A stretch of 64,000 bases of DNA, from contig LJHW01000022.1 in the NCBI GenBank assembly GCA_001295865.1, positions 1 through 64,000 on the forward strand, in the 5' to 3' direction. Positions within the stretch are counted from its first letter, which is position 1, and each line of letters begins with the position of its first letter. Made by a program: the position numbers and the translations under genes. Below the pieces are notes generated by a model. That model saw only the letters and a program-made list of their open reading frames with translations. It did not search any database and was not told the origin of the DNA. Positions 30,129 through 36,019 of this stretch are shown piece by piece. The stretch comes from a beta proteobacterium AAP65. Its GTDB lineage: Bacteria; Pseudomonadota; Gammaproteobacteria; Burkholderiales; Burkholderiaceae_C.

Positions 30129-30334
30129 GTCGCCTCAGCGTGCCCATCGTGAACATCCATCGAGCGCGGCTCGGTTCTCGGTCGGTGCCGGCACGCCCCG
30201 GTTGTCACGGCGGCGCCAGGCAAGCCCGGCTGCTGGGGCTGCCAACAGGGGTGTTGTGCGCCGGCACGGGCATCTGCCGTGGTTTTCGGCCAGCCGGCGC
30301 GCCTTTTCAGGTCCAGCGGGCCCGCTGCGCTCGC
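30129..30334. other. Intergenic gap with no supported gene
   Basis: These 206 bases lie between the FapA-like gene and the end of the DUF1415 gene. Both neighbours are on the minus strand, so this should hold the FapA-like promoter, but I see no convincing -35/-10 pair, operator or terminator, and no small ORF with a ribosome-binding site. Confidence 0.4.
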
Positions 30335-30949
30335 TCAAGCGTGACCGAGGTCGCCAGATTTCTCGTTTTGTCCGAACCGGTCGCCGAAAACGGCGCGGCC
30401 TTGGGCGGGCGTCAGCGCTTCCAGCGTCTCGATGTTGCGCTCGAAGATGGCCTCGGCCTCGGGGAAGGCTTCCACAGCGCGCTCGACGCTGTCTTCGCGC
30501 AGCAGGTGCAGCGTGGGAAAAGGCGCGCGGTTGCTGAGGTTGCCGGCGTCGCCGGGCTCGGTGCCCTCGAACTGGAACTGCGGGTGGAAGCTGGCGATCT
30601 GCAGGTCGCCGTCCAGGCCCAGGTCTTCCAGCGCGCCTTCGGCGACGTCGAGGAAGTCGTTGAAGTCGAGGAAATCCGGCAGGGCCTGCGGGCAGACGAG
30701 CACGGTCGTGTCGGTGGTCTCGGCCGGCGTGGCGTGCAGGTGTTTCAGCTCGGCCACCAGGTCGGCCAGCAGTTCGCGCGGCTGCGTGGCGCTGCTTTCC
30801 ACCCAGCGGATCTGGCCCTTGCTGTGCACGGCTTTCGCGAAGGGACAGAGGTTCAGGCCGATGACGGCCAGTTCCAGCCAGGCTTGTGTGTCCTGCAGCG
30901 CAGGGGAGGGAGTGGTCGAGATCAAGGCGGTGCCCGCAAAAGGGTTCAC
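30335..30949 (-). CDS. DUF1415 family protein
   Basis: A 204-residue protein of the DUF1415 family. The hallmark N-terminal segment WLELAVIGLNLCPFAKAVHS is present near residue 28. It is followed by the conserved FNDFLDVAEGALEDLG and FHPQFQFEG. The start is taken as GTG 30949, which overlaps the soxA stop (GTGA), because the sequence upstream of it reads as a soxA shadow. No biochemical role is established for the family to my knowledge. It is the last gene of the iorAB-soxXYZA operon. Confidence 0.85.
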   Translation of the reverse strand: MNPFAGTALISTTPSPALQDTQAWLELAVIGLNLCPFAKAVHSKGQIRWVESSATQPRELLADLVAELKHLHATPAETTDTTVLVCPQALPDFLDFNDFLDVAEGALEDLGLDGDLQIASFHPQFQFEGTEPGDAGNLSNRAPFPTLHLLREDSVERAVEAFPEAEAIFERNIETLEALTPAQGRAVFGDRFGQNEKSGDLGHA

Positions 30950-31713
30950 GGCCGCACGGCAGGGCTTTCCATCGCCATGCCGGCAGCGCGCTGTTTCAGG
31001 TAGAGCTCGATCATCGTGTATTCGTCGCTGCCGTAGGCATAGGGCTCGGCGCGCACGCCCGTCATGCAGTTGCGCAGGCGGCGCTGCAGCGAGCCCAGGC
31101 CCTGCCATTCCAGCCGGTACAACGGGTAGCCGGTGGGGTGGGCCTGCGGAATCAGCGCGCTGGCCAGGCGGCGGCCGGCGTGGTCGTCGTGGCATTGCGC
31201 GCAAGAAAAATCGAGCTGGCCGATGCGGCGGCGGTAGAGCGCCTCACCCTGGGCCACGAAAGGCTGCAGCGCCGGCGTGCGGTCAGGAGCGGTGGGCAGG
31301 CCGCGCGACTGCAGCGCGACAAACGCTTCCAGCGCGAGCAGGCCTTCGCTCTCGGGCGCCAGCGGCGGTGCTTTCACGTGGCGCACGCGGCACTGGTTGA
31401 TGCGGCCGGCCAGCGTGAGCGGCTTGCCGAGCGTGGTGTCCCAGGCCGGGTGGCGGGCGGCGGCCCCGCGCAGGCTCATGGCCGGCGCGCTGCCGCTGCC
31501 GTGGCAGCCCGCGCAATCGGCTTGGAAACGCTGCTCGCCGTCTTGCACCCACAGCATGGCGGGGTTGAGGGTGTCGTCGCGCTGCAGGGCCTGCGTGCTG
31601 GGCGCCATGTCGGCAAAACCCGAGCGGCGCAGGTCGGCAGCGCCGGCGCTGGCGCTCACCAGCCCGGTCAGCAGCGCTGCCAGCGCCAGGCTGGCGCGCT
31701 GGGCGGGCTTCAT
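30946..31713 (-). CDS. soxA: SoxA diheme c-type cytochrome
   Basis: A 255-residue periplasmic cytochrome of the SoxAX type. It has a signal peptide (ending SASAGAA-D), two haem motifs CAGCH (67-71) and CAQCH (171-175), and the modified active-site Cys216 in LRNCMTGVRAEPY. The partner is SoxX. SoxAX attaches the sulfur substrate to the SoxY Cys with release of electrons. Both haem motifs are intact, so it is a diheme form. The ATG overlaps the soxZ stop (31710-31713). The operon lacks soxB and soxCD, so a full thiosulfate-oxidising cycle cannot be made from this locus alone. Confidence 0.9.
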   Translation of the reverse strand: MKPAQRASLALAALLTGLVSASAGAADLRRSGFADMAPSTQALQRDDTLNPAMLWVQDGEQRFQADCAGCHGSGSAPAMSLRGAAARHPAWDTTLGKPLTLAGRINQCRVRHVKAPPLAPESEGLLALEAFVALQSRGLPTAPDRTPALQPFVAQGEALYRRRIGQLDFSCAQCHDDHAGRRLASALIPQAHPTGYPLYRLEWQGLGSLQRRLRNCMTGVRAEPYAYGSDEYTMIELYLKQRAAGMAMESPAVRP

Positions 31714-32036
31714 GCCACCGTGAGCGTGGCGGTTTCGCGCTGAGAGACGCCGCTGTCGCCCTCGATGCTGACCACCAGCGTGCCGCTGCGTGTGGCGCGC
31801 AGGGGGAAGGCGAGGAAGGGATTGGCGGTGATGGCCGGGAAAAGATCGGCCGCGAACACCAGCTCGCCCTCGAAGCGCGCCTCGATGCGGCGCAGGATGT
31901 TGCGCGGCACCGTGCGCCCGCTGGCATCGGGACGGAAGCCGGTTTCCATGGGGTGCTGCATCAAGAGCCGCACCTCCACCACCTCACCCGGGCGGGCCGT
32001 GGTCGGCAGGCGCAGCAGCGCGCGGATGGTGCTCAT
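31710..32036 (-). CDS. soxZ: SoxZ carrier-complex subunit
   Basis: A 108-residue protein of SoxZ type: RALLRLPTTARPGEVVEVRL, LMQHPMETGFRPDASG and the C-terminal immunoglobulin-like strands (ITANPFLAFPLRATRSGTLV, SIEGDSG). SoxZ has no signal peptide and is exported as a complex with the Tat-signal-bearing SoxY. The gene overlaps soxY by ATGA and soxA by ATGA, so stoichiometric coupled translation is likely. Confidence 0.92.
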   Translation of the reverse strand: MSTIRALLRLPTTARPGEVVEVRLLMQHPMETGFRPDASGRTVPRNILRRIEARFEGELVFAADLFPAITANPFLAFPLRATRSGTLVVSIEGDSGVSQRETATLTVA

Positions 32037-32491
32037 TCGCCCTCCAGGCAGGCGGCCAGGGCCACGCTCACGGCCACGCGGTGTTGCCAGCAGCTGCCGT
32101 CGTTCATGCGTGCGATGGCAATGACGTTCTGGCTGGTGGCCATGCGCAGGCGTGTGCCCACCATCGCGCGGCCGCTGGCCGGGCCGAGGTGGAACACGGC
32201 CACCTCGGGCTGCGGGTTCAGCTCGGTGAAGAGGGCGATGCGCTGCACGTGCTGTTCGGCCGTCATCGGGCTCTGCACGCTCACGCTCACGGGCACGGTG
32301 TTGCCGTTCTCCACCACGGCATCCACGGCCAGCGTGACGCGGCCGGTCTGCAGTGGCACGCCGCCGGTGAAACCTTCGATGGCGGCTTGCAGCGCTGGCG
32401 AAGCGGCCGCATGCACGGACCAGGGCCGCAGCAACACGGTCAGCGCGCCAGCGCCGCCAGCGGCCAGCACCGTTCGTCGTTCGACTTTCAT
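32033..32491 (-). CDS. SoxY-related carrier protein with AACLE arm
   Basis: A 152-residue SoxY homologue. It begins with a Tat-like signal (MKVERRTVLAAGGAGALTVL), consistent with export of the folded SoxYZ pair. The immunoglobulin-like body is typical (NTVPVSVSVQSPMTAEQHVQ, RIALFTELNPQPEVAVFHLG). The C-terminal swinging arm, normally GGCGG, reads VALAACLEGE, with Cys148 kept but its Gly neighbours replaced. This matches the SoxY-related AACIE-arm class rather than true thiosulfate SoxY. The carried group may differ from thiosulfate. ATG overlaps the soxX stop. Confidence 0.88.
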   Translation of the reverse strand: MKVERRTVLAAGGAGALTVLLRPWSVHAAASPALQAAIEGFTGGVPLQTGRVTLAVDAVVENGNTVPVSVSVQSPMTAEQHVQRIALFTELNPQPEVAVFHLGPASGRAMVGTRLRMATSQNVIAIARMNDGSCWQHRVAVSVALAACLEGE

Positions 32492-32916
32492 TTCAGCGTT
32501 TCCAGAAAAGCCACCACGTCTTCCACCTGCTGCGCGCTCAGCACCGGCTTGCCCTGCCACGCTGCGCCTACCCGCTGCTCGGCCGTGGCCGGCGGCAGGC
32601 GGTGGAAGCTGGGCATCACGCTGGCCGGGTTCAGGTGCTTGGCATCGGCCACACGCAGGCGCAGTTGCGCAGCGCTGTAGCGGCTGCCCACGCCGGCCAG
32701 GTTCGTCGACAGGTTGCCCTGCGCGCGCTCGGCCGGCGTGCGGTCGAAAGGCCCGCTGTGGCACAGCAGGCACAGGCCCTGGGTGCGGTCGACCACGAGG
32801 GCGCGGCCGGCCGCCGCGTTGCCGGGCGTGGCGGTCAGTGGCTGCGGGATGCCATCGCCCACCACGGTGAAGGTGATGGCCGCCCCCGCCAGCGCCAACA
32901 CGGCCATGCCCGGCAT
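32488..32916 (-). CDS. soxX: SoxX monohaem c-type cytochrome
   Basis: A 142-residue cytochrome c with an N-terminal signal or anchor helix (MPGMAVLALAGAAITFTV). It has one haem site CLLCH (49-53) and the distal Met in SVMPSFHRL. GNLSTNLAGVGSRYSAAQLR and the C-terminal LSAQQVEDVVAFLETLK are typical of SoxX. ATG 32916 is preferred to the adjacent in-frame GTG. It begins only 15 bases after the molybdenum-hydroxylase large subunit gene, so electrons from either SoxA or the Mo enzyme could pass to it; the second option is inference. Confidence 0.9.
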   Translation of the reverse strand: MPGMAVLALAGAAITFTVVGDGIPQPLTATPGNAAAGRALVVDRTQGLCLLCHSGPFDRTPAERAQGNLSTNLAGVGSRYSAAQLRLRVADAKHLNPASVMPSFHRLPPATAEQRVGAAWQGKPVLSAQQVEDVVAFLETLK

Positions 32917-32931
32917 CACGCGCGCCGTGCC

Positions 32932-35133
32932 TCAGGCCTGCTGCAGCTGCTGTTTGATCGGCAGCTCGCGGATGCGCTTGCCGGTGGCCGCGAAGATGGC
33001 ATTCAGCACCGCCGGTGCCGCCACGGCGATGGTGGGCTCGCCCACGCCGCCCCAGAAGCCGCCCGAAGGCATGACGATGGTCTCGACCTTGGGCATCTCG
33101 GCGATGCGCATCGACGGGTAGGTGTCGAAGTTGCGCTGCTCGATGCGGCCGTCCTTCACCGTGCACTCTTCGTAGAGCATCGCGCTCAGGCCGTAGACGA
33201 AGCTGCCTTCCACCTGGGCCTCGATCTGCTGCGGGTTCACCGCATAGCCGCAGTCGGTGGCCGCCACGATGCGGTGGATCTTCAGCTGCCCCTTCGCGCC
33301 CACCGAGATCTCGGCGCAGGCCGCCACATAACTGCCGAAGCCGTGCGTCACGCACAGGCCGCGGTGCACCTTCTGGCCGTCGATGTCGGCCGCGGGCTTC
33401 TCCCAGCCCACCCGAGCGGCCACCGCGTTCAGCACCGCCAGGTGCTTCGGGTGTTGGGCCATCAGCTTGCGGCGCAGGGCCAGCGGGTCTTGCTGCGTGG
33501 CGTGCGCGATCTCGTCGATGAAACACTCCAGGTAGACCGCGTTCTGGTTCAGGTTCACACCGCGCCAGAAGCCCGGTGGCACGTGCGGGTTGCGCATCGC
33601 ATGGTCGACCAGCAGGGCCGGGAAGCTGTAGCCGATCATGGCCTCGCCGCCGCCGTTGTTCAGGCCCTGGAACATCACCGGGTCGCGCCCGTCGCGGATG
33701 GCCTGCGGCGCCACGCCGGCCAGGATGCTCTGGCCGCTGATGCGCATGTGCAGGCCGGTGATGTTGCCTTGCGCGTCCAGCCCGGCCGTCATCTTGGCCT
33801 GGGTGATGGGGTGGTAGCGCCCCTGGGTCATGTCTTCTTCGCGCGACCACAGCAGCTTCACAGGGGTGCCGGGCATCTGCTTGGCGATGAGCACGGCCTG
33901 GGTGATCCAGTCTTGCACCGCGCCGCGGCGGCCGAAACCACCGCCGAGGTCGATCTTGTAGACCTCGCACTGCGCTGCCGGCAGGCCCGCGGCCTGTGCC
34001 GCGGCAGCCAACGAGGCCTCGCCGTTCTGCGTGGGCGTCCAGACCTCGCAGCGCTCGGCCGTCCACTTGGCCGTGGCGTTCATCGGCTCCATCGTCGCGT
34101 GGTTCTGGCGTGGGTAGGCGTACACCGCCTCCACCTTGCGCACCGCACCGGCCAGCGCGGCCTTCACGTCGCCGTTGCTGTTGCCCACCACGGCCTGCGG
34201 CGCGTCAAGACCGGCCTTCAGCACGGCGTTGAAGTCGGCCTGCTGCACGTTGGCGTGCGCGCCGAAATCCCATTGCACGGGCAGTGCGTCGAGCGCCTTT
34301 TTGGCGCGCCACCAGGTGTCGGCCACCACGGCCACGGCGTTGTCGCCCACGGCCAGCACCTTCTTCACGCCGGGCATCTTTTCCACCGCGGCGGCGTCGT
34401 AGCTCTTGAGCTTGCCGCCGAACACCGGGCAGGCGTTGATGGCGGCGTTCAGCATGCCGGGCAGTTGCAGGTCGGCACCGAAGACCTTCTTGCCGTTGAC
34501 CTTGTCGGCCGTGTCCAGGCGCGCCATGCGCTGGCCGATCAGCTTCCAGTCCTTCGGGTCTTTCAGCGGGATGTCGGCGGCGGCCGGCGGCGTCAGCTTC
34601 GCGGCCGCGGCGGCCACCTGGCCGTAGCTCGCCTTGCGGCGGCTGGCAGCGTGGGTGATGACGCCCTTGCTCACGGTGCATTCGGCGGCCGGCACCTGCC
34701 ATGTCTCGGCGGCGGCCTGCACCAGCATCAGCCGGGCGCTGGCGCCGCCCTTGCGCACGTAGTCGTGGCTGGCACGGATGCCGCGGCTGCCGCCCGTGCC
34801 GAAGTCGCCCCAGGGGCGCTTGCGCGCCAGGCTCTGGCCCGGCGTGGGGTACTCGGTGGTCACCTTCGCCCAGTCGCATTCCAGCTCTTCGGCCACCATC
34901 TGCGCCAGGCCGGTGAGCGTGCCCTGGCCCATCTCGCTGCGCGCGATGCGGATGATCACCTGGTCATCGGGCTGGATCACGACCCAGGCGTTGACCTCGG
35001 GCACCTGCCCCTGCGCCGCGGCGCTGGTGGGAAAGCCGAAGACGAAGCCCCCGGTCACGGCGGTGGAGACGGCGGCCGTGGCGGCCGCGCCGGTGCCGAT
35101 GAACTGGCGGCGGTTCAGCGTGGGGGCCTTCAT
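32932..35133 (-). CDS. Isoquinoline 1-oxidoreductase-type molybdenum hydroxylase, large subunit (IorB-like)
   Basis: A 733-residue periplasmic Mo-cofactor hydroxylase large subunit. The N-terminus is a Tat signal with [20 protein letters not shown]. Cofactor-binding landmarks follow: [58 protein letters not shown] and the terminal [20 protein letters not shown] with the catalytic Glu. Length and domain order match IorB proteins, which hydroxylate N-heteroaromatics or oxidise aldehydes. The ATG overlaps the small-subunit stop (35130-35133). No dedicated cytochrome subunit follows; instead soxX begins 15 bp downstream. Confidence 0.9.
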
Positions 35134-35627
35134 GCGGCGCTCCGGGTGACGTGCACGATGTCCAGGCCCGCGGTCTTCGTGACCCCGGCAGCTTCCTTGA
35201 TGGCCGCGCGCACGCGGTTGAAGGTGCCGCAGCGGCAGATGTTGGTGATCTCCGCGTCGATATCGGCGTCGGTGGGTTTGGGCTTCTTCTTCAGCAGGGC
35301 CGCGGCAGCCATCAGCATGCCGCTCTGGCAGTAGCCGCACTGCGGTACGTCGTTGTTGACCCAGGCCTTCTGCAGCGCGTTCAGGCCCTTGGGCGACAGA
35401 CCCTCGATGGTGATCACCTTCTGGCTGGGCTGCACCGCCGAGACCGGCATCACGCAGCTGCGCACCGGGTTGCCGTCGATGTGCACCGTGCAAGAGCCGC
35501 ACTGCGCCACGCCGCAGCCGTACTTCGTGCCCGTCAGGCCCAGGTGTTCACGCAGCACCCACAGCAGCGGGGTGTCGGGCTCGGCGGGATGCTGTCGCAC
35601 CTGGCCATTGACGTTCAGACGCGTCAT
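35130..35627 (-). CDS. (2Fe-2S)-binding small subunit of molybdenum hydroxylase (IorA-like)
   Basis: A 165-residue iron-sulfur subunit. The plant-type [2Fe-2S] cluster is bound by [20 protein letters not shown] plus Cys58 (VRSCVMP). The second cluster is bound by [11 protein letters not shown] and [11 protein letters not shown], all intact. It has no signal of its own and is co-exported with the Tat-signal large subunit. AGGAG lies before the ATG. It is first in the operon iorA-iorB-soxX-soxY-soxZ-soxA-DUF1415. Confidence 0.93.
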
Positions 35628-35707
35628 CGGGGTCTCCTGGCGGTTGCTGTTAGAGACGCCGATGATGGCCCGTGTGAACCACCCCCGCCTTCAGTCGGGT
35701 TTGCGGT

Positions 35708-36019
35708 TCAGTGCAGCTTGTCTTTGCCGTCCTTGCCGTTCTTGCGCTCATGGAAACGGTCGGGCCTGTAAACGTTGCCTTCGCGTTCCACCTGCGCAGC
35801 CCGCCGGGCGCGCTCGATGAGGGCTTCGGCCGCCTCGCGGGCCTGCCGCGGGTCGGGCTGTCGGGGCGGCGCTGGCGCGCGCCGGGCGGCGCTGGTCCGC
35901 CGCCACCAGGCCGAGGCGCGCTGGCGCAAACCCTGGGTTCGCGCCGGGCCGAGCAGCATGCTGCCCCACACGAGCGCGCAGAACACCAACCCCAATACCG
36001 CGAAAACCTGGTCAGCCAT
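35708..36019 (-). CDS. Small single-TM protein of unknown function
   Basis: A 103-residue protein with one N-terminal transmembrane helix (VFAVLGLVFCALVWGSMLLG), then a basic amphipathic helix (ARREAAEALIERARR-like) and a Lys/Asp-rich tail (ERKNGKDGKDKLH). It resembles no family I recognise. It is divergent from the caspase-fold protein gene and separate from the sox operon. The reading frame and codon choice look coding (strong G/C at third positions), so I treat it as real. Confidence 0.6.
   Translation of the reverse strand: MADQVFAVLGLVFCALVWGSMLLGPARTQGLRQRASAWWRRTSAARRAPAPPRQPDPRQAREAAEALIERARRAAQVEREGNVYRPDRFHERKNGKDGKDKLH

Follow-up and report, generated by a model that had tools for sequence, protein, structure and literature searches.

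A conserved operon pairing a molybdenum hydroxylase with a variant Sox carrier, and its possible role as a periplasmic oxidation module

Results

The window analyzed here is a stretch of 64,000 nucleotides from the beta proteobacterium AAP65 (assembly GCA_001295865.1, contig LJHW01000022.1, positions 1 to 64,000). Our subject is an operon of seven genes on its minus strand, in the order iorA-iorB-soxX-soxY-soxZ-soxA-DUF1415, in which a molybdenum (Mo) hydroxylase stands next to a Sox carrier set. The first gene, iorA (35130-35627), encodes the small subunit of a xanthine-oxidase-family Mo hydroxylase with two [2Fe-2S] clusters (PF00111 and PF01799, Fer2/Fer2_2), and iorB (32932-35133) encodes the Mo-binding subunit (PF02738 and PF20256, MoCoBD_1/2), with a twin-arginine start, NRRQF, and a catalytic GVGEP after SGGFWGG. 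Judged by its MoCoBD domains, two [2Fe-2S] domains and catalytic GxGE motif, the enzyme would be of the IorAB type. There follow soxX (32488-32919), encoding a mono-heme cytochrome c with the motif CLLCH (TIGR04485, 68.6 bits against a cut-off of 61); a soxY paralogue (32033-32491, ATG start, 152 residues) with an AACLE arm, whose carrier Cys148 has its codon at 32048-32050; soxZ (31710-32036), for the carrier partner of SoxY (TIGR04490, 81.4 bits, cut-off 76); and soxA (30946-31713), for a di-heme cytochrome c with two CxxCH motifs and the cysteine of RLRNC (TIGR04484, 187.2 bits, cut-off 110), which has relatives in the PDB (1h31, 2c1d). The last gene (30335-30949), of the DUF1415 family (PF07209), has a GTG start that overlaps the soxA stop. 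Pfam and NCBIfam models back every gene name except that of SoxY, which falls to a paralogue model. The operon itself contains no soxB, soxCD or flavocytochrome c genes.

Four-base ATGA/GTGA overlaps are found at five junctions (iorA/iorB, soxX/soxY, soxY/soxZ, soxZ/soxA and soxA/DUF1415), and the 12 bases between iorB and soxX (32920-32931) leave no room for a promoter or terminator. Scanned for consensus sites, the region 30200-35900 gave no sigma-70-like promoter and two terminator-like sites, both on the plus strand. The original prediction, made from the DNA letters, had described seven genes running head to tail with overlaps and had placed the carrier cysteine at position 148 of SoxY; the coordinates, the strand, the five overlaps and the length of SoxY all agree with this. 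Its concern that a promoter or terminator might split the operon between iorB and soxX was not borne out. The word "fused" in its title, on the other hand, does not apply, as the genes are adjacent only and there is no gene fusion.

The SoxY protein scores below the model for true SoxY (TIGR04488, 95.8 bits against a cut-off of 125) and above that of TIGR04487 (185.4 bits, cut-off 172), and its C-terminal arm reads AACLEGE where canonical SoxY has GGCGG. By sequence this SoxY is classed in the named paralogue family TIGR04487 and not as a thiosulfate carrier, a point overlooked by the original prediction. Cys148 is invariant in an alignment of 26 SoxY sequences. In the predicted structure (mean predicted local distance difference test score, pLDDT, 83.4) the last strand ends at residue 144, and Cys148 lies in the low-confidence tail that follows.

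The arm was then compared with the neighbors of the gene. From 398 genomes of the phylum, 30 SoxY loci (L140-L169; L and G numbers are our handles for loci and genomes) were picked by the score of a hidden Markov model (HMM), the window's own locus included. The arm is GGCGG in 10 of them and of the type [APS]AC-x-[EDI] in 20. When 16 loci with a non-GGCGG arm and 4 with a GGCGG arm were widened, iorA and iorB were found in all 16 of the former and none of the latter, while soxB was found in none of the 16 and in all 4 of the GGCGG-arm loci. An HMM search of 299 genomes of the family of the window's genome, in 38 of which TIGR04487 scored above its cut-off, gave 30 short loci; the SoxY tail is [AG]C[ILV]E in 30/30, and these loci contain iorB (29), soxX (29), soxZ (30) and soxA, whole or in part (29). 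Homologues that score just below the cut-off, L155-L159 with AACLI, AACVI or SACID arms, have soxXYZA and, where widened, iorAB, and four genomes of one family that lie just under the TIGR04487 cut-off have AACLI or AACVI arms, three of which, when widened, revealed the same operon.

A contig scan of named genomes yielded at least 553 stretches encoding a relative, and the best 80 of these were read (L060-L139). They include Bosea, Ancylobacter, Azospirillum, Methylobacterium, Duganella, Polaromonas and Steroidobacter; from their names we take the genera of the 80 loci to be Alpha-, Beta- and Gammaproteobacteria. Pooling of all loci (19 + 80 + 16 + 5 + 13 = 133) and removal of 7 duplicates left 126 distinct proteobacterial loci, chosen with queries that contained no iorAB. 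All six core genes, iorAB-soxXYZA, are present in 109 of the 126, and soxB in none. Of the incomplete loci, 12 are cut by contig ends, as read from match positions, and five are true exceptions. The tight coupling of a Tat-exported (twin-arginine translocated) Mo hydroxylase with SoxXA and SoxYZ, described by the original prediction, is thus kept far beyond AAP65, and the adjacency is not unique to the strain, an outcome that would have counted against that prediction. DUF1415 was rejected as a member of the module, being found after soxA in only 8 of the 80 named loci and in 1 of 19 wide family loci (L055, the same locus as L060); it is a lineage-local rider, and the core is iorAB-soxXYZA.

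The functional motifs of the core are retained. IorA has 8 or 9 cysteines in 115/115 distinct homologues counted, IorB has GVGEP with the catalytic Glu in 120/120 and the twin-arginine pattern in 111/120, and SoxA has two CxxCH motifs in 120/121. The segment SGGFWGG directly precedes the catalytic Glu in 113 of the 120 Sox-linked IorB proteins. Among 7 printed matches to IorB paralogues, 4 were readable at this site and none of them has it. The next two IorB proteins of the window's genome are 38 and 35 percent identical to that of the module. All 126 loci retain the SoxY Cys together with a non-GGCGG arm, a count that is partly built in because the 80 named loci were found by peptide patterns containing either the arm (VxV[TA]LA[AG]C[ILV]E) or the motif V[ED]NGN; the claim about the arm rests instead on the HMM-chosen sets, the 30 family loci and L140-L169. 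Joint variation of the IorB loop and the SoxY arm is seen in few lineages (L176, L178 and L181, widened from genomes that have SACTE arms, and L107 and L135, which lack soxA), too few to be counted. Pairwise omega is between 0.01 and 0.45 in 63 of 66 values (11 pairs for each of six genes), the other three values, from one saturated pair, not being computable. The module genes are under purifying selection.

Although the operon lacks them, SoxB and SoxC are encoded elsewhere in the same genome, on contig C34 (SoxB 878 bits, cut-off 550; SoxC 589 bits, cut-off 420). True SoxY, SoxA and SoxX each score above cut-off on this contig, soxY and soxA have a SoxZ match between them, and the one match of the genome to flavocytochrome c sulfide dehydrogenase (FCSD) lies near these genes. 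A soxD gene, for which no model scored above cut-off, is assigned by its place next to soxC and its cytochrome domain. The genome thus holds what, from these matches, is an apparently complete canonical sox cluster. The statement of the original prediction that SoxB and SoxCD are missing is therefore right for the operon and wrong for the organism, and the second locus that it had raised as an alternative does exist. The SoxA, SoxY and SoxZ proteins of the module are 28, 32 and 34 percent identical to those of C34, which indicates an old paralogous set and no recent copy.

To follow SoxB across genomes we considered 43 family genomes with this type of SoxY (38 past the TIGR04487 cut-off, 5 narrowly under it). 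In 31 of them SoxB scores above its own cut-off, in 1 (G291) the match is partial, and in 11 no match is above the cut-off, the others there reaching at most 101 bits against 550; these 11 include assemblies of one contig (G197) and of four contigs (G212). Four of 19 further genomes with this SoxY type are without any SoxB match, giving 15/62 genomes with no SoxB above cut-off. In 14 of the 15, iorAB lies beside soxYZ, and the remaining one, G600, was not widened. The module therefore does not need SoxB. Since no SoxB scores above cut-off in these genomes and the arm differs, the C34 cluster does not explain the operon.

A frequent companion of the module in many lineages, also overlooked by the original prediction, is FCSD. 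Its gene fccB (PF21706 and PF09242 on a representative) is present at 50 of the 126 loci: 34 have it in the iorB-soxX interval, 10 downstream of soxA, 1 upstream of iorA in the same orientation and 3 divergent from iorA, and the other 2 loci are truncated. That it occupies four separate places suggests that it was linked repeatedly to one function. The divergent loci all come from one genus, whose three genomes have no SoxB above cut-off. Other neighbors are rarer. Four alphaproteobacterial loci (L065, L073, L074, L111) have an extra cytochrome c gene upstream of iorA, on its strand and within 1 kb of it. XdhC is the usual cytoplasmic sulfuration factor for Mo hydroxylases; in L065 and L074 its gene and the end of soxA overlap, and L182-L184 have XdhC matches (33-34 percent identity) on the soxA strand, no more than 0.5 kb past that gene. 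AMP-dependent ligases, near 11 of the 126 loci, were dropped as clues to the substrate, as those other than the query itself are 24-35 percent identical to it and vary in distance and strand.

Several further observations concern individual loci. In the window, a caspase-domain gene (PF00656; 36135-37283, plus strand) is transcribed divergently from the operon, and L055, L066, L079, L087 and L088 have relatives of it beside the module. A gene for a 103-residue protein without a Pfam match (35708-36019, minus strand) lies directly upstream of iorA and has relatives in L055, L061 and L088; downstream of the operon is a gene for a 654-residue protein whose N-terminal domain is of the FapA type (PF20250; 28164-30128, minus strand). 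At L062 (11534-13767) a histidine kinase and an OmpR-type response regulator are encoded beside soxA on the opposite strand, an arrangement that recurs in similar alphaproteobacterial loci and may help to trace the inducer. The Methylobacterium loci L107 and L135 combine the absence of soxA with SGGFIGG in place of SGGFWGG in IorB, a natural variant that may reveal interdependence of the parts. L138 (5050-7165, the same locus as L217) has AACxE-type soxXYZA beside a frame that reads by eye as recJ-like, and L048 (7300-9250) lies in the one-contig genome G197, which has no SoxB over the cut-off.

Discussion

The reading that we favor, tentatively and with a probability of about 0.4, is that iorAB-soxXYZA forms a dedicated periplasmic oxidation module apart from thiosulfate oxidation, in which the Mo hydroxylase replaces SoxB and SoxCD as the partner of SoxYZ. 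The change of arm that accompanies iorAB (16/16 versus 0/4) lends support to the earlier suggestion that the Mo enzyme and SoxYZ act together. The homology of SoxXA and its intact heme and Cys motifs suggest that it would oxidatively couple a sulfur-containing substrate to Cys148 of the AACxE-type SoxYZ. SoxYZ would then present the bound compound to the Tat-exported IorAB, which may occupy the place of SoxB and SoxCD in the classical cycle, since arm sequence and neighbors switch together.

The substrate is probably not thiosulfate. Enzymes of the xanthine oxidase class hydroxylate carbon, and for this reason the bound compound would most likely be organic, for example a thiol or a thiol-aldehyde adduct whose carbon is hydroxylated by IorAB. 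A persulfide or sulfide left over could be passed to FCSD, which the canonical cluster might supply in the window's genome, and electrons from IorA, SoxXA and FccAB would flow to cytochrome c. Taken as a complete organosulfur carrier pathway, with SoxXA loading an organic thiol on the AACxE arm, the Mo hydroxylase oxidizing the tethered carbon and flavocytochrome c clearing the sulfur, this scheme is doubtful.

A number of points weigh against a carrier-bound oxidation module. We know of no xanthine-oxidase-family enzyme that acts on a carrier-bound substrate. The best solved relative of IorB is an aldehyde dehydrogenase large subunit (PDB 8gy3, chain C, aligned over residues 3-727). No gene that would name a substrate is widely shared among the flanks of the loci, and conserved flanking genes were accordingly rejected as a clue to it. 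In 76 of the 126 loci there is no fccB in the stretch examined, and fccB also occurs near GGCGG-type sox genes (L169, L186, L189 and C34), so that it is not specific to the module. Parts of the module can be lost: soxA is missing from L107, L135 and L216, and in L048 soxX is gone and soxA reduced to a remnant, all four keeping iorAB and soxYZ, while L138 has no iorAB within 5.2 kb upstream of soxXYZA. Within the family sample SoxB is commoner with the module SoxY (29/38) than overall (163/299; Fisher p 0.005, with versus without the paralogue), which indicates that ties to thiosulfate users exist. Finally, for Starkeya novella, whose second sox cluster (Snov_1975-1982) joins soxX2Y2Z2A2F2 to a Mo enzyme of the xanthine oxidase family, the part of the 2013 report available to us (PMC3797975) records one SoxF2 subunit at a low level in proteome samples in which SoxAX and SoxYZ were undetected.

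An unlikely alternative sees in IorAB a conventional periplasmic dehydrogenase of aldehydes or heterocycles whose substrate is free, with SoxX and SoxA serving only as cytochrome c partners and SoxYZ handling released sulfur without meeting IorAB. The aldehyde dehydrogenase structure speaks for it, as do the three c-type heme motifs in the operon, FccA in many lineages and the further cytochrome c gene upstream of iorA in four loci. It does not readily account for the SoxY Cys and non-GGCGG arm at all 126 loci (subject to the selection of the 80 named ones), or for the loci that have lost SoxA, or SoxXA, while iorAB and soxYZ stay. We had considered the Sox cytochromes as a substitute for the cytochrome subunit of IorAB operons and dropped this idea, since the 10-kb stretches around the two closest IorAB paralogues of the window's genome contain no heme-motif open reading frame of at least 90 residues; a neighboring cytochrome is thus no rule for IorAB. 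The relation might also be reversed, with FCSD, SoxXA and SoxYZ forming a periplasmic sulfur relay that regenerates the labile sulfido ligand at the Mo site or shields it. The arm change and FCSD would fit such a relay, and SoxYZ-like proteins beside pyrroloquinoline quinone (PQQ) alcohol dehydrogenases offer a precedent, at least in the accessible part of their description (PMC12997753). The XdhC genes at L065, L074 and L182-L184, however, make maturation of the Mo enzyme look conventional there, and SoxXA with both heme motifs seems excessive for the task, so that we consider a relay quite improbable.

That the operon is a variant for thiosulfate or polysulfide which borrows SoxB and SoxCD from a canonical cluster elsewhere in the genome is suggested by C34 itself and by the enrichment of SoxB in the family. 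With 15 of 62 genomes devoid of SoxB above cut-off, an AACxE-type arm that is never beside soxB in the loci read, and only 28, 32 and 34 percent identity between module and canonical proteins, we give borrowing little chance. Least credible is a silent duplicate without function. This was proposed for S. novella, where, in the portion of the paper at hand (PMC3797975), very low transcript levels of the cluster were recorded with glucose, methanol and thiosulfate, and its SoxAX and SoxYZ proteins escaped detection; the authors suggest that the cluster either lacks functional significance or serves in other conditions. Low expression on the substrates tested suggests another inducer, and the retention of gene set and motifs across several proteobacterial classes, together with the omega values of 0.01 to 0.45 wherever computable, argues against a lack of functional significance.

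A set conserved in many soil and freshwater bacteria, in which a Mo enzyme takes the place of the usual sulfur-processing enzymes next to a modified carrier, points to an uncharacterized sulfur-linked oxidation pathway. The group is large (at least 553 stretches), under purifying selection and found in genomes without SoxB, despite the one earlier suggestion that such a cluster lacks significance. The organosulfur pathway would bring with it a Mo hydroxylase with a protein-tethered substrate and a second catalytic cycle on the SoxYZ swinging arm, and SoxYZ, if it carries the substrates of the module, would be a more general periplasmic carrier, comparable to acyl carrier protein. Scoring soxXYZA genes as thiosulfate oxidation would then misjudge many heterotrophs, and part of the organic sulfur cycle would become testable.

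Relation to known systems

The window's SoxX, SoxA and SoxZ pass the models of the canonical Sox pathway (SoxXA, SoxYZ, SoxB, SoxCD), from which the operon differs by SoxB, SoxCD and the GGCGG arm, replaced here by AACLE. SoxY instead passes TIGR04487, the "SoxY-related AACIE arm protein", with an AAC-x-E arm; the name of that model states the arm and gives no partner or function. A survey of the SoxY family removed sequences without the GGC motif as of poor quality, according to the part of its text available (PMC11237559), and such a filter would remove the AACxE-type group. In Bradyrhizobium diazoefficiens, which also has a soxY2, soxY1 alone is reported to be essential for the oxidation of thiosulfate (PMC5748708). 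The aldehyde dehydrogenase in PDB 8gy3 is like the window's IorB over the full length of the large subunit and reads NTEKPTG where the Sox-linked proteins have SGGFWGG before the catalytic Glu.

The second cluster of S. novella, compared by its published description as far as we could consult it, has the same set as the window operon (Mo hydroxylase, SoxX, Y, Z and A, without SoxB or SoxCD), and its gene numbers fit the order iorAB-fccAB-soxXYZA that we see in alphaproteobacteria. The window operon, unlike it, has no fccAB, and the S. novella paper treats one genome. Beyond this case, an open-library search turned up no paper on the conserved module.

The nearest functional parallel is provided by the fused SoxYZ-like proteins (TIGR04557) tied to PQQ alcohol dehydrogenases, for which, in the accessible part of the source, roles in maturation, cofactor stabilization or protection are suggested as hypotheses only (PMC12997753). 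The carrier proteins of the window do not reach this model (61 and 45.9 bits against a cut-off of 140). The two systems differ in that the window has separate SoxY and SoxZ, SoxXA, and a Mo instead of a PQQ enzyme; in both, as far as that description goes, a SoxYZ-type carrier is tied to a periplasmic carbon dehydrogenase.

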